A stretch of 64,000 nucleotides of DNA from Liolophura sinensis (lineage: Eukaryota; Mollusca; Polyplacophora; Chitonida; Chitonidae): positions 20,377,608 to 20,441,607 of the forward strand of contig NC_088300.1 in the NCBI RefSeq assembly GCF_032854445.1. The letters are read 5' to 3'. Each line of letters begins with the position of its first letter. Positions within the stretch are counted from its first letter, which is position 1. The position numbers and the translations under genes were made by a program. Shown here one piece after another: positions 25,211-42,758 of the stretch. A model generated the notes under the pieces. That model had not been told where the DNA came from. It did not search any database and saw only the letters and a program-made list of their open reading frames with translations.

Positions 25211-26254
25211 ACGTAGTTCAGACACGACACGAGGGAAATTTTGCGAGCGGTGAAAAAATGCTATATTGTTCTGCATGAGCGTGTACCTTAATATGAAAAA
25301 TGCATTAAATTTTCATTGCAGAAATGCAAATATTGATGTTTGTTTGCATTAAGAATGATTATAGATGCTCAACAAGAAGGTTGGAAACTTCTACATCAAC
25401 AATTGGAATTGCAAGGGCTCTGTTTGTGTGTGTTTAAATGGGGGCGGGCGGGGGTGGGATAGGATTGACAACCTATTTTATTTCCCGAAACTCATATAAC
25501 TTTACTTCCGATATGAAAGTTATTCACTATTGTCATGTTGCCAAGTAGGTAATTAAGACATATCTGACAAGAAATTTAACGGCAGCATTAGGGAACACTA
25601 CTCATAAGCTCATTTCAGACAAGGTTGGAATAAAAAGCACTGGACTTAAATAGTTTCAATATTATGCATGTACTAAAAGCCTTTTTTTAAAAAACTTCTT
25701 TAAGAGCATATTGTTGTACTATCTATTTGATCACAGAAGTAAATGTTATTATTTATGTGTGTCTTCGCAGAATACATGTGGATTCAGACGTTAGTTTTTA
25801 AATTTGCTTTAATTATCTCTCTGGTGTGCGGACCAGCTTGCTCTGCCACAATTCTTTTGGAAGGGAGACAACTCCTTCAACTGTGATAAATTCGGATGTT
25901 GCATTTCACGCCAAGGTGAATTAACCCTCTTTCAAATGAGTTTGTCTTGCATGTGTATAGTGCTGTTACGGTTAAAGGAGGTTGACAAATGCATGTTGCA
26001 CTAACTTATTTATCATGAATGACAGATTACTATTAAAAGGGCTGACTCTCTTTAATAAAAGAAAGAACAAAAATCATTAACGTCAGTCTGAGTTCAGTGT
26101 AACACCACAAGACCTATGTGCCTCATGGAATAATGGAACAGACAAATTACTTTCGAGTTAATTAAATGTTTACTTTAACAATTTACAGCCACGTCATTGT
26201 ACCATACAATAGTACATCTACTTGTCACAATATCTGAATCTCACGGCATAGATT
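25211..26254. other. Intergenic, nothing recognised
   Basis: AT-rich sequence with a short G-rich run (GGGGGCGGGCGGGGGTGGG near 25440). No gene seen. Confidence 0.35.
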
Positions 26255-27170
26255 AAACATTCAATAACATATACATACTCTGAGATATAAGTAAGCAGGC
26301 CAAGATTAAAAAACATAGATACATACTCTGAAATATAGGTAAACAGACCAATATTCAATAACATATATACATACCTAGAAATGTAGGTAAACAGGCCAAC
26401 ATTCAAAAACATATATACATACCTAGAAATATAGGTAAGCAGGCCAACATTCAAAAACATATACATACACTGAAATATAGGTAAACAGACCAATATTCAA
26501 TAACATATATACATACCTAGAAATGTAGGTAAACAGGCCAACATTCAATAACAAATATACATACCCAGAAATATAAGTAAACAGGCCAACATTCAATAAC
26601 ATATATACATACCTAGAAATATAGGTAAACAGGCCAACATTCAATAACATATATACATACCCAGAAATATAGGTAAACAGGCCAACATTCAATAACATAT
26701 ATACATACCCAGAAATATAGGTAAACAGGCCAAAATTCAATAACATAAATACATACCTAGAAATATAGGTAAACAGCCCAACATTCAATAACATATATAC
26801 ACACCCAGAGATATAGGTAAACAGGCCAACATTCAATAACATATATACATACCTAGAAATATAGGTAAACAGGCCAACATTCAATAACATATATGCATAC
26901 CTAGAAATATAGGTAAACAGGCCAACATTCAATAACATATATACATACCTAGAAATATAGGTAAACAGGCCAACATTCAATTACATACATACATACCTAG
27001 AAATATAGGTAAACAGGCCAACATTCAATAACAAATATACATACCCAGAAATATAAGTGAGCAGGCCAACATTCAATAACAAATATACATACCTAGAAAT
27101 ATAGGTAAACAGGCCAACATTCAATAACAAATATACATACCCAGAAATATAAGTAAGCAGGCCAACATTT
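26255..27170. repeat. 48-bp minisatellite, about 19 copies
   Basis: The plus-strand unit is AACATATATACATACCTAGA followed by AATATAGGTAAACAGGCC and AACATTCAAT. Copies differ at a few positions (CCTAGA or CCCAGA; ACATATATAC or ACAAATATAC; AGGTAAAC or AAGTAAGC). Two variant types alternate in the right-hand third, suggesting higher-order duplication. As 48 is divisible by three and the unit lacks stops in one minus-strand frame, a 16-residue repeat stays open for up to 185 codons. There is no start context, splice signal or domain to make this a gene. Confidence 0.95.
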
Positions 27171-32522: not shown

Positions 32523-35500
32523 ATGGCCGAGGAACAGAGACTGGACGACCGAGTAGATAAGAGGAAATGTGATGATTTTACATCGCTGTACAGCCTAGAG
32601 CCCACAGTAACCAGCGGAGGTCCTGTATCTCAGAGGGGAATGCCAGATCCGAGCGGTAAGTTCTTGTCTTCACACTCTACCTGGAATCTGCTCCTCAGCC
32701 TGCAGAGTTTTCAAAGGAAATGAGAAAATTCTCCACTCGGCGCCCACTTACCAGACCGCCGAAACCCGATCCAAATGCCAAATCATATTTTACCTCGATA
32801 ATTGATCTAATTTTTCAACGGTTATGTAGTGGAGACGAAATATCCCGAATCGCTCCTGTTAACTCTAATCAAATACCTATAATTTACTTTTCGCCGACTA
32901 ATTCCATTTCGAAGCTTTCTCCATGACATGCGCCAAAAGAGATCTGCGACGCGAATTCCAGCGGCCAAAAGGACGGTAAAAACCTTTTGCAGTAACGAGC
33001 CCAAGCCAAACGTAGTTATGCAACGTGCAATATCCCAGAAAATATCAGCCATAATGGCATTTTCTTGTTACGTTCTTTACCTATGTAACGGCGGAAAGGC
33101 AGCTTTTCCATTGAATGCTGTGGCGATTGGCGTCCAGTAGAAAATCGTATCAGACCAGTAATTAATTTTATTAAATGCTCGCCGGTAAGAATTCTAGGTC
33201 GAACTAACGAAGCAATGTTCGCCAGCTTTCATCTCCTTACGTTTTGCCAATCCTGTGTAAGACTCCAAACGAAGTTGACTCACTTTACGTCCCGGGATTT
33301 CTTTAAAATTTGCCCGTTTGGTTTTTACTTGTTCTGTGGCGTTAAGCCAGCTGAACGTCGCACTGAGGGGATCTCGGCCGACTTACATAGAGCGCATTGG
33401 GAATGTGTACACTTACCGTGCTTCTGTATTCTTCGATGTCCAAATTGTTTTCCTCGAAGCAGTCGGCCATAATGCTACATTATAAAGATATGACGATTTA
33501 CTATGAGGAAACACATTTTCATGGATGTGGGTAAGTACGGCGCTAGATATGCATTTTTTTTTAAACCAAATTTATTCTTTTTATTTCTTATCAAATAGAC
33601 AACAGTTTATTTTTGTTTCTTCGCAAAATCCTAATATTTTAGGAAAATAATCCAACCCATTTCTACATATTGTCAAGCAGGAATTACGAAAAAAGAAACT
33701 ATTGATTCACTGTTTTTTTTTCATCATAATATTTTCATACAAACTGTTTTTATTTCGGCATAAATTCCGATGCAAGAAAGAATTTTTCATCCGTTTTATC
33801 TTCTCCAAAAGGAGATGAGGTCTTTAACTAAGGCATAGAAAACAGATTGGTGTCGGGTGCAGGTCGCGTGTCACACTGAATACCGCACGTGCTCTGTGGC
33901 GAGGTGGTGAGAGAAGGTGTTAAATTCAGACCACCAACATGCGCCCGCTACGGGAAATCGGTGAACGCCAACAGGCCGATGTCAAGCACCCAGAATGTCA
34001 CAAAACTAACGTTCTGTACAAGTTTGATCACTGTTATGCAAGATCATAGCCAAAATATGCTTGTTATCTGTTAAACGCACCAGTTTGTATGACCATCTGT
34101 CCAGGTTGTATCGGGATGGACAAGGTGGGCTGGCGTCAATTAGTGATTACAGTGTTACTGAGGGTATAACAATGTGTAGAAACACTGCACAACTGCTAAG
34201 TAATTTATCACTCATTGTTCTCGGTTAACCTGTTCAATTAAGGCGGATTTAAAAGTTTTTGCTGGGAGACGATTACAAACACAATGTAAACATGATTCAG
34301 GAACAAAAGATTACGGGCAGAAAAATACAGCTATAGCCGACGATAAAAGGTTTCCATTGAAACCGAAACTGTGTATTTAAGTAACGTTTTGTTTCCTACA
34401 GACAGAGCTGATTATAACCGTACGGGCGAATCTCCGGAGATTTACTTTTACTTTATCTTAGAGGTAGATTATAGCCAATCTTTGAGTGATTTACACGGAC
34501 TTGCTATTGACACCAGAGTATATGCAACACAATTCTCCGTCTTATATACAGCAAATGTTTTTATGCTGACAGAAACATCCTACCTTTATAAAGTTTTTCA
34601 TTGGAAGCCGGTTTTTTTTATACATTTCTACAGCTAAAGTCCAATGAATATGTTGACCATATTTCGAGGGATTATTTGTAACACTGATGGAACATGTTAA
34701 CAAGAAGGAAGTTATAATTCTACAAACATCAATTATCCGTATTAACTGTTAGCAAATGAAAACTAGGCATGCTGAGACAATCATGCTCTCCTGGGATAAC
34801 TGACTTGCATAGAACTATTTCGAACTCACGTCATATATCCCGATGTATGTAGGCATATTTAAATCCAAACACTTGTTTTACTAGTGTCTATTAATATTCT
34901 TGCATAATGTCAACATTGAACTATATACAAGTATTTTTATTTTTTAGAACGAATAATTTATGTCCCTCACAGTATGGTTTGAAAAATAAATGTTGTATAA
35001 TCTTGTATATTAGATTTTGGTTTAAAATCAATTTCCATTTTCAGTATTATGTTAACTTTTTCAAACTTATAGCGAAGGGTGTGATACTCATTGACAATTA
35101 ATGCTGAAATGACTTTTTGTTTAAATATTTATTGAAAACAATAAACAAAAACACTGGCAAAATGTTTTCTTCTCTTGCTGATATTTCAATTTTTGGGGAA
35201 TGTGAGAAACATTTAAGTGCACTATGGGTTAACGACTTCATTTATCTATTAATAATATTCAAAACTTGAGATCTGAACCGCGTTAAAATTGAATCCCAGG
35301 CCATGTTAAATCTCAGCAGATAAAGCTATAATATTTATTTAGGGTTTGCTAACAATATTAAATATTAAGAGAAAACGTATAATTCGTTTGAAATAACCAA
35401 AACTAAACAAAATTAGCGAAGTATATACATGTCCACTGAAGCAAATGCAATTACTAGCATCTTTTAATTCATGTAAAGCTTTCTGGAAACAACAAAACGG

Positions 35501-38500
35501 AAATTTTTGATAATTTGCCTGTTTTCTTTGTTTAAGAAGGGGCCTTCAAAAAGATCAAAGCAGAGGGAGTGAATTCATCATCATCAATGGGTGGCGGTAG
35601 CGGCGTGAATTCGGCTAGCGGGCACACCCCGGGCTCTTGCCCCACCCCCGCCCGCCGGAGACACCGGACTACGTTCACCCAGGAGCAGCTACAGGAGCTG
35701 GAGGCCGCCTTTGCTAAGAGTCACTACCCAGACATCTACTGTCGGGAAGAGCTCGCCAGGATCACCAAACTGAACGAAGCCAGAATACAGGTTAGGACTA
35801 GCTATTAAATACCAGCTCGGTTGTCTTCACCATGTCTTTGTTTTGGCCCTACGAAACATATCCTTCTCCAGACCTGTGTGGCATTAACAACTATAAAAAT
35901 TATAGCATTAGATATTTTAACAACCACATGCTCTCAACATTCTTATTCTCAATAATATTTGAAATGTAAAGACATAACATTTTTTTTGTATAAAATAAAA
36001 CACGTGATTACATTGGTATCACTTTTTGAATGAAAACAGGACTTGGAGTAATGTCACAAAAAACATTTTCAAGAAGATATGCTTAAATGCATAAATGCTT
36101 GACATTTCTTAAACAGTGAGACCAGTTCATTTTAGTTTAAAATTTAAAATTTTAAAAGAGCAAAACGGCTGTCCTATTGTAAGGCAAATTCTATCGAAAA
36201 GACTATATAACTTCCTAAAATGATTTTAGTTTGTTAGCGATGTGAGTAAAAAAAATCCAACAGAACGAGGAGATCCCATCATATCCTGTAAGAAAATAAA
36301 TTTTATAAGATATATAACTTAGCTGTGCTGCACTTAATTTTAAACTAGCAAACGTAACACAAAAAGTTGCAAAACAAATGGGGTCACAACCATGCATTTC
36401 CCGCGAAACTTAAACTTTAATCTTACAAAATATATACTGATCCAATATATATATTTGGTGAAAACAGAAGACATGAGTTCATAGCCGGTAGTGGGCGATT
36501 TGAGATTCGTATCTTATTTATATAGTGGTCTACTTCTTTTGAACCAAAAATGCAAAACCTGTACTTTGTGGATTTATGAGTGTTGCAACGAATAGTGTTT
36601 CACAGCTTTCTGATGTTTTTAAATGGTTTAAAAGAACTAAATTAATTAATTTATAGTGTCCCCGTTAAATAGAATTAAAAGTTGTCGTGAAGAGCGAAGA
36701 GTCGTGTGTGTTCATATCGAAAAATGTAAACTGAACGCTGTTAACACAATGCAGAAATAACGACACTAACTGTTATAACTGCAGTCTTCAACTGTTTATT
36801 TAAAGGCAAAGAACACACTAAAATGAAGTATGTACCAGATGAAAGACCATTAAAAACTGTTCAGAAAAATAGTTCGATTTATTTTTTTTTTCGAATTTTT
36901 CCAGCCCAGTGAAATGACTTGAAAATATCTAATTCTGTTGGGATCTGGAGGATCACATGTATATTTTTGGCATGAAATAATTCGATTCAAGGTCCATTCG
37001 GTGAACACGTTCATATTTCTGTATGTTTGTGTTTTTTCATTGATTATATCTAGCAGTCTATGTGTGTCAGCTATCAAAAACCTGATGTGACGTCCCTGTT
37101 ACAAATATGTTCAGGAAGGTCCATCTTAGAATCCAAAATTTCAAATGCAATTAACTAGGACCAAAAAATTCTGAAAAAATAAATCGAACTACTTTCCTAG
37201 ACAGTGTTGGTTGGACTATAATCTGACATGTACTTCATGTTAGTGTTGTCTGCCTATAAGGTGATGTATTTAACAAAGGCTAAATAGTAGAGGTGGGTGG
37301 GGGAGAGGGTGACAGAAGCCATTTAATACTAATATACTATTGACAAATGTTAGGCCATGGAGCTTGAATATAAGAAAAGTATTTTGTGATCCATACACAA
37401 AAGGCTTATCAATGTGAATATTTATGTACCCACTATTTTGGTGGGGATGTGCATGTTGCTTTATTCTTATGGCGGCCCTAGTGATAAATACCACATCAAT
37501 ATTTATTTGGGAAGCGCATCACGGAGTCGCATATTTCAAAATGAAATCTTACAATAGTTTTTGTGGAGAATCAACCCCATACGATAAACACATGTCTGTT
37601 TGAATGTTTTCATGAAAAAGGCGCAGGAAAATGTATAGGTCTTTTTATTGGTGAAGAACACTAACAAAAACATGTACACATGTACAGTTATGTGACACAG
37701 TACGCATTTGTAAGTTTTCGGTGAATGAATATAAATAACGTGCCTGGACTTGAGAAATTTGCGCTTAAGTAAAATTAGACTAGTGCAGAAACACGGCATC
37801 TTGTTAATTGATAAATACTGTAAGAGAATATAAACTCAACATCAATATGACGCAGTTACTGTCGCGTATGTTAAATTGCTCGTATAAGTACACGTTTTGT
37901 CGAAGCCTAGATATCGTTATCTTCAGTACAGTCTGTGAAGCTCTTTTTAAGTTTCACTATGTACGACTGGCATTTAGAAGATTTCATTTGTTGTGTGCCG
38001 ACTATTACTGTTATTGGGTGAGCAAATAGAGCCCTGAGGGATACCAGTCCGGATGACTGGGGACATGTTGGCGTAGCAGATGCCAGTAGCTGCTACAGCC
38101 ACATCAGAGCATTGAATGTCTTGGAAACAACAGAAATTGACTCGGCACTAAGACCTCTTCAAGATTTTAACGTTGCCCATGTTTTTTGTTATTGTGAAGT
38201 GAAAATTTTCTCCGCCACAGCCCGCTAAATGAGCCTGTGTATTGCCGTATGTTCAGTCAAAGTATGGTACTCTCATTTCGCCGTCTGTTACAGCCCTTCT
38301 ACCAAATCCGCCAGCCATTTTCATCATTGACACAGTTCGTATTAGGAACACCGTTCCACATACATGAATCGTATTAACCATTTTTAGGCGTGGAAAATTG
38401 CATTTCCTAAACTACTGTTATCTCATGTATCTGTTATATGTAGCATAGTGTTAAATTGCTACACTATTTACCTGAAAACAAAAAAAAAACATAATAAACA

Positions 38501-41500: not shown

Positions 41501-42758
41501 GCAATTGTGCATGCTAATATGTTAAATCACCCACAAGACATCTTGCAAACTCAGCAGTATAAATTACAATTAGTTTAAGGGTCAAAAATAAATAAAATAA
41601 ATTAAAAATCTTTTCAATAAAATAAATCCTAATCGAGACAACAAATATGACTGTTATTGCAATTTGTTTACGTTAACACACTTTACACTGATTAACACTT
41701 GCTTCATAGTAACAGTATTGTATTCATTCTATGTCTTTAATAGGTTTGGTTTCCAAAACCGGCGTGCCAAATACCGCAAACAAGAAAAGCAGCTAGCCAA
41801 ATCCTTGTCACCTGTTATACCCACGTGCAATGGTATGATGCGAAATATATATCCAACGGCTTCCCGAGGATACCCTTACCCCACGGGGAATTCCATGAAC
41901 AACGTAATGCCCCGGTACCCACAAATGAACACCGCCTACAACCCAGTGGCTCAGTTCTCGGGGATGAGTTCTATGCCCAGTTCTAACATGTCCAGTATGT
42001 CTGGGATGTCCACAATGCCCAGGCAGATGCAGCAGTTCCAGATGGCCACTGACTATAACCTGGTCGGCTCTCTGCAGGTGAGAATTCATATGTTGACCTT
42101 ATCATATAGGCTTACATAAAACCCAAGGTTTACGCAATAACCAAGTGTTTAATATCTAAATGAAAAGTAAAATTATCAAACTGACGTCAAAATAACACAT
42201 TTTAATTTTTAGAATTTTCACAATTAGTCCATATTTCATTACTTACGTAATTACGTACGTAATTCTACATATAAACGTTATATGTATGCGTGATCGAGGG
42301 TTAACGGTTTATTTAATGTCCACGCAGTTATATTTATTATGACCTCACCTTGATGTACCTTGTGGAATTAGCACCTGAAAGTAGAATTACTTCGGTTGCA
42401 CAATTATGCACATAGTAGACAAACGGTCGTTTGTTCTACCTTGGTATAATTTCGTAAATGTATACGAAATGGTGTAATGTACTCACTTAAAAGTTATTAT
42501 TGTTTCTTCTAAATGGTTATCAAGGATGAAAAAGATTTAGCTGCAAGGTGATTTATTAAAAAAACTCACTGTGGGTTGGTTTTAATTGGAAATAAATTTA
42601 TGGCGGCACTTTTGTATTTTGATCCACATTTTATTTATTTCCTTCACTATTTGTAGGACACCCATGAGGATGACTGGTATAACAAGAGTCTGACGGCTCT
42701 TAGAATGAACAATACACACCCTGGCCTATCAAATTCCGTGCTACAGTACCAAACGTAA
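32523..42758 (+). CDS. Prop1: Paired-like homeobox transcription factor, Prop1/unc-42 class (4 exons; 1-base frame break in exon 3)
   Basis: Coding exons are 32523-32655, 35537-35790, 41744-42077 and 42657-42758, all with GT-AG introns (phases 1, 0, 0). Corrected for one extra base the product would be 273 residues. The homeodomain spans residues 84-143: [20 protein letters not shown] begins it, helix 2 carries [14 protein letters not shown], and helix 3 holds the WF.QNRRAK recognition sequence with Gln at position 50 and Asn at 51. The second intron falls between homeodomain residues 46 and 47, a classic position in paired-like genes. The helix 1/2 sequence and [12 protein letters not shown] are diagnostic of the Prop1 / C. 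elegans UNC-42 / Drosophila CG32532 group. Exon 3 adds a Met/Ser-rich tail, and exon 4 contains a short EDDWY-type motif like the C-terminal DWY of vertebrate Prop1. Expected role: sequence-specific nuclear transcription factor in neural or neuroendocrine cell specification. In exon 3 the frame is broken by one base at 41750-41754 (see findings). Confidence 0.93.
32690..33480 (+). promoter_or_regulatory. Intron 1 proximal island, candidate enhancer
   Basis: The first ~800 bases of the 2.9-kb first intron are repeat-free and less AT-rich than the rest. They contain several homeodomain-type cores (CGATAATTGATCTAAT, CGACTAATTCC) and a CCAAT-like GTTTTGCCAATCC. Open frames here carry no domain. 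Regulatory function is inferred. Confidence 0.3.
33481..35536. other. Remainder of homeobox intron 1
   Basis: AT-rich intronic DNA ending in the acceptor TTTCTTTGTTTAAG at 35536. No nested gene or recognised repeat. Confidence 0.5.
35791..39369. other. First part of homeobox intron 2
   Basis: AT-rich intronic sequence that starts with the donor GTTAGG. I saw no exon, SINE or tandem array. Confidence 0.45.
39370..39900. promoter_or_regulatory. Intron 2 island, candidate enhancer
   Basis: A repeat-free, CpG-containing block stands within the 6-kb second intron. It includes GTTCAAAGGATTT (TCF/LEF-like on the minus strand), GAATTCATAAAACCC, and TTCACGTTTGTG (E-box-like). Overlapping open frames on both strands show no domain. 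Its intronic position in a developmental transcription-factor gene favours a regulatory role. Confidence 0.38.
40130..40500. promoter_or_regulatory. Second intron 2 island
   Basis: A GC-elevated, purine-rich stretch (GGTGGCGGATTGGCTGGACA to GACGCGCTGAGACGC) with a CCAAT-type GATTGG. No coding support. Probably non-coding, possibly regulatory; low confidence. Confidence 0.27.

Follow-up and report, generated by a model that had tools for sequence, protein, structure and literature searches.

A surplus base in a Prop-like homeobox gene of the Liolophura japonica assembly is very probably a sequencing or assembly error

Genes of the Prop family (Prophet of Pit-1) typically share a homeodomain that starts RRRHRTTF, an intron that separates homeodomain residue 46 from residue 47, and an acidic tail motif, DWY, and we take an intact recognition helix to require W48, Q, K or S50, N51 and R53 in one reading frame. 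A predicted gene of the chiton Liolophura japonica resembles Prop genes in its PRD-class homeodomain, its RRRHRTTF start, its 46/47 intron and its acidic DWY tail motif, and differs from them in that its frame, as assembled, is broken between residues 48 and 50; the label Prop-like rests on these motifs, which presumably mark the family. In human PROP1, the alleles c.301_302delAG and c.310delC are likewise small indels that shift the frame in the homeodomain part of exon 2, according to the available text of PMC10522137; unlike the chiton lesion, which is known from one assembled sequence alone, they were seen in the DNA of patients.

The chiton gene lies in a window (here, the whole 64,000-nucleotide stretch of DNA analysed, C6:20377608–20441607) that is free of N runs. 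We built the exon models from open frames and splice signals, and they are predictions; the features are as follows.

32523–32655, plus strand: exon 1, ATG with 44 codons and one base, ending in phase 1 with donor GTAAGT at 32656; predicted from its open frame and splice signals
35537–35790, plus strand: exon 2, N-terminal linker and homeodomain residues 1–46, ending CAG in phase 0 with donor GTTAGG at 35791; an alternative acceptor is possible 3 bases later, 35540
41744–42077, plus strand: exon 3, 334 bases, starting V47 W48, followed by the frame break; donor GTGAGA
41750–41754, plus strand: TTTCC, the stretch holding the surplus base, between W48 and Q50
41984–41986, plus strand: premature TAA stop, met when exon 3 is read as assembled
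42657–42758, plus strand: exon 4, continuing the shifted frame without a stop as far as the natural TAA

Elsewhere in the window, open frames on the minus strand at 26218–26980 derive from a tandem repeat, roughly YMLLNVGLFTYISRYV, that is probably a minisatellite.

The exon 2 piece matched the Pfam Homeodomain profile (PF00046) over positions 1–45 of 57 with 50.5 bits (E 1.8e-13), above the curated cut-off of 22.9 for homeodomain membership, and in a genome-wide profile scan the same homeodomain spanned positions 1–46 with 52.8 bits. The best PDB chains among 22 PDB matches were Pax-3, aristaless-like 4, aristaless and Paired, with no Prop chain among the 22; judged by these nearest solved homeodomains, all of the PRD class, the gene is assigned to that class. 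DNA and protein searches each returned one match in the genome, showing a single-copy locus, and on these grounds we rejected the possibility that a haplotig or a paralogue holds a different version of it. The homeodomain scan, which scored 150 of 312 candidates, listed 150 matches, and among them are two runs of equal or near-equal score at C5:1098451–1163070 (at least 11 matches, profile 2–54) and C9:8214551–8242802 (at least 10 matches, profile 3–46), which suggests that two types of homeobox have expanded locally in tandem.

A preliminary description of this DNA had placed the end of exon 2 after homeodomain residue 46, in phase 0, and the end of the exon 3 acceptor TAG at 41743, followed by V47 and W48, and both boundaries were recovered in our models. 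Reading exon 3 in both frames also bore out its central claim that the Q50, N51 and R52 codons lie one base out of the W48 frame, with one base too many in TTTCC and an exon of 334 bases. From the acceptor, exon 3 reads VWFPKPACQ and runs on to the stop at 41984–41986, giving a product of 209 residues whose homeodomain is missing from residue 50 onwards; W48 and QNRR stand in separate frames, so that the recognition helix as assembled is not encoded in one frame. Read one base further along, the sequence is open through exons 3 and 4 to the natural stop, as the description had said; its count of 109 codons holds when F49 is included, exon 3 having 108 from Q50 onwards. The remainder of exons 1–4 is open with matching phases, and there is no second lesion.

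The description had further held that no shift of donor or acceptor repairs the frame. Combining 90 donor with 165 acceptor positions, we enumerated 14,850 pairings and scored those that kept R44-I45-Q46; none of them gave a W two residues before Q50, nor did any pairing of a GT, GC or AT donor with an AG or AC acceptor open the QNRR frame within 12 residues. Because TGG and CAA AAC CGG stand in one stretch of exon 3, no junction can join both in frame: a junction before TGG leaves it and the QNR codons in different frames, and a junction after it loses TGG. Searching the six frames of the window for WFQN, FQNRR or QNRR gave three matches, with a homeodomain context only at 41751, and a second exon in the window carrying the missing codons was rejected.

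The lesion is rare among the matches to its word in this genome. The intact W48–K55 word, TGGTTYCARAAYMGNMGNNNNAAR, had 83 genome matches (backward control, 1), and the word carrying an added base at this position had one, the window's own (backward control, 1), so that 83 of the 84 matches are intact; the match to the inserted-base word is not due to chance. WFQNRRxK words one base short had two matches (backward control, 0), both reading QNS, not QNR, after the gap because the search pattern admits AGY serine codons. These tighter words replaced a looser search dropped as noisy (276 matches against 194 in the backward control). Six homeodomain matches with odd profile ends, fetched from the 150 listed, showed no clear frameshift: in two (L003 and L007) the match ends with AGAAG, directly before a GTGAG donor; three appear to begin or stop at natural exon boundaries; and the sixth (L006) is ambiguous.

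As a control on the assembly itself we turned to alpha-tubulin. A tubulin scan of the same assembly scored 150 of 160 candidates, and its counts refer to the matches listed; in two pairs of adjacent pieces the frames differed by one base. From it we aligned 36 alpha-tubulin main exons (39,969 bases), excluding C10:958754, which has a different exon structure, and tubulin rows that were not of the main exon. Three of the 36 exons carried six frame-breaking single-base insertions: three in L012 (C6:72086400–72088500), two in L010 (C6:50070000–50072200) and one in L023 (C7:24064766–24065955). The 36 exons contained no single-base deletion, the sole other internal gap relative to L022 was a 6-base in-frame deletion in L034, and each of the remaining 33 exons gave one unbroken tblastn match in a single frame against the reference protein. 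That all six events are insertions has p = 0.016 under equal odds, with the reservation that, grouped as they are in three exons, they are not wholly independent events.

Compared with their paralogues over 368 codons, L012 differed by 28 silent and no replacement changes, L023 by 12 silent and none, and L010 by 85 silent and 9 replacement changes. As the differences are almost all silent, the three broken exons look functional apart from their insertions, and three frameshifts without a single replacement change, as in L012, are not how a pseudogene would be expected to decay. Most of the insertions extend a very short run by one, an exception being the second in L012 (an A between C's), and TTTCC in the window may likewise be a very short run lengthened by one. 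The homeobox lesion equals the alpha-tubulin insertions in size and sign (+1); the same type of lesion, as would be expected of an artefact, recurs in conserved genes without other decay.

Six beta-tubulin copies (L008, L009 and L046–L049) were also fetched, of which L008, L046 and L047 had been picked for their odd look, and these stand outside the count of six insertions. L008 (C8:7102300–7104700) has one isolated coding +1 with more gaps in introns, and L049 (C8:41390200–41392300), fetched for comparison, also has one isolated coding +1. In L047 the first large exon carries two one-base insertions and the following exon a 21-base insertion that keeps the frame. Relative to its neighbour L009, L046 (C8:7094600–7097300) has lost one base at five places and gained one at two, with a further insertion of three bases, and is probably a true pseudogene within a cluster of tandem copies. 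The decay of L046, together with the gaps of L047, means that real frameshifts also occur in this genome and that not every frameshift need be an artefact. Among the matches listed, 30 of 32 second-exon beta-tubulin rows have open frames of at least 272, and two are shorter. The isolated tubulin insertions, those of L012, L010, L023, L008 and L049, are probably assembly errors.

Other families were cleaner. A check directed at off-frame pairs found none within 60 bases in 49 rows of HSP70 (20,268 bases) or in 56 of actin (15,285 bases), although stops were reported inside some of these rows; 50 TCP-1 rows inspected by eye had no off-frame splits. The lack of such splits in these three families, and of a clear one in the fetched homeodomains, indicates that errors outside tubulin are rarer or clustered. 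They seem to be clustered, perhaps where coverage is thin, and may be more frequent in tubulin arrays than in single-copy regions. The probability that a CDS of 823 bases contains one or more such insertions is about 12% at the alpha-tubulin rate and about 6% when HSP70 and actin are pooled with it. A rough extrapolation from these few families to about 28,000 genes gives more than a thousand affected genes, and on that figure a hit in a homeobox requires no special cause.

HiFi errors are best known in long homopolymers, unlike which the runs at the lesion (TTT and CC) are short, a point against the error reading. The available text of PMC11068029 describes the Liolophura japonica assembly as built by hifiasm from HiFi data at 14x, with purge_dups applied, and as having 632 scaffolds and 13 pseudomolecules; a word search of that text returned no Merqury, and 'polish' for DNA ends only, with no sequence polishing. 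The assembly that we examined comprises 609,464,459 bases in 632 contigs, and judged by the published figures in that text its total is about 31 kb apart from the published one, with some scaffolds (for example, C6 and C13) a few kb shorter. A literature search on hifiasm insertion errors, on Prop in chitons and on homeobox genes in Liolophura yielded nothing directly usable.

Working from the assembled sequence, we infer that the extra base is very probably a sequencing or assembly error, a reading favoured because other conserved genes in the assembly carry similar stray +1 insertions. The lesion resembles low-coverage long-read +1 errors: it is one isolated extra base within a short run, the gene is open elsewhere, and its sign is that of the six in alpha-tubulin. 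It differs in that the homeobox locus is without a close paralogue, so that the exact base is not comparable. The low-coverage HiFi assembly would have added one base to a Prop-like, PRD-class homeobox gene that is single-copy and otherwise intact; the tubulin insertions would be errors and the homeobox base one as well, and the animal's own gene would encode an ordinary full-length homeodomain protein. The preliminary description leaned the same way, with a truncated allele as its alternative, and the isolated +1 insertions that break three alpha-tubulin exons in this 14x HiFi assembly lend its view support.

The best-surviving alternative, which we regard as unlikely, is that the sequenced animal really carries the inserted base, in heterozygous or fixed form, and that the protein is cut short ahead of a complete DNA-recognition helix. 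A premature stop upstream of the last exon junction can mark an mRNA for nonsense-mediated decay; here the stop lies 91 bases upstream of that junction (the end of exon 3), which would make the mRNA a candidate for such decay if the allele is real. Loss-of-function alleles should segregate at the heterozygosity of 1.22–1.26% given in the available text of PMC11068029, purge_dups drops the second haplotype, and the assembly has one copy only. Frameshifts in the homeodomain of human PROP1, such as c.301_302delAG, are known to be pathogenic (available text of PMC10522137). Against a null allele, the rest of the gene is open without a second lesion, and a rare deleterious allele does not explain like insertions in several constrained genes.

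A second alternative keeps the base as real and tolerated: the ribosome would slip by +1 on UUU-C, Phe UUU re-pairing as UUC, and so join W48 to Q50 and make the full homeodomain at some efficiency. The sequence UGG UUU CCA would let the P-site Phe tRNA re-pair one base on, both frames are open on their own sides, and influenza PA-X is made by a +1 slip after UUU. The A site, however, does not hold a stop, the added base occurs in this one of the 84 W48–K55 matches and in no other, and no common slippery theme was seen among the tubulin insertions, all of which makes slippage highly improbable; were it true, a conserved homeodomain factor would be made through programmed frameshifting inside its recognition helix. 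A splice form so far unseen that restores the frame deserves equally little credence: nothing was found in its favour, and the enumeration refutes a simple two-site shift, so that it would need a micro-exon replacing residues 47–49 or trans-splicing.

If the extra base is an assembly error, the consequence for the biology of the animal is little, since its gene is probably intact. For users of the genome, stray single-base insertions appear to break conserved genes in this assembly, and any gene loss, pseudogene or odd C-terminus called from the Liolophura japonica assembly needs read support before it is accepted.
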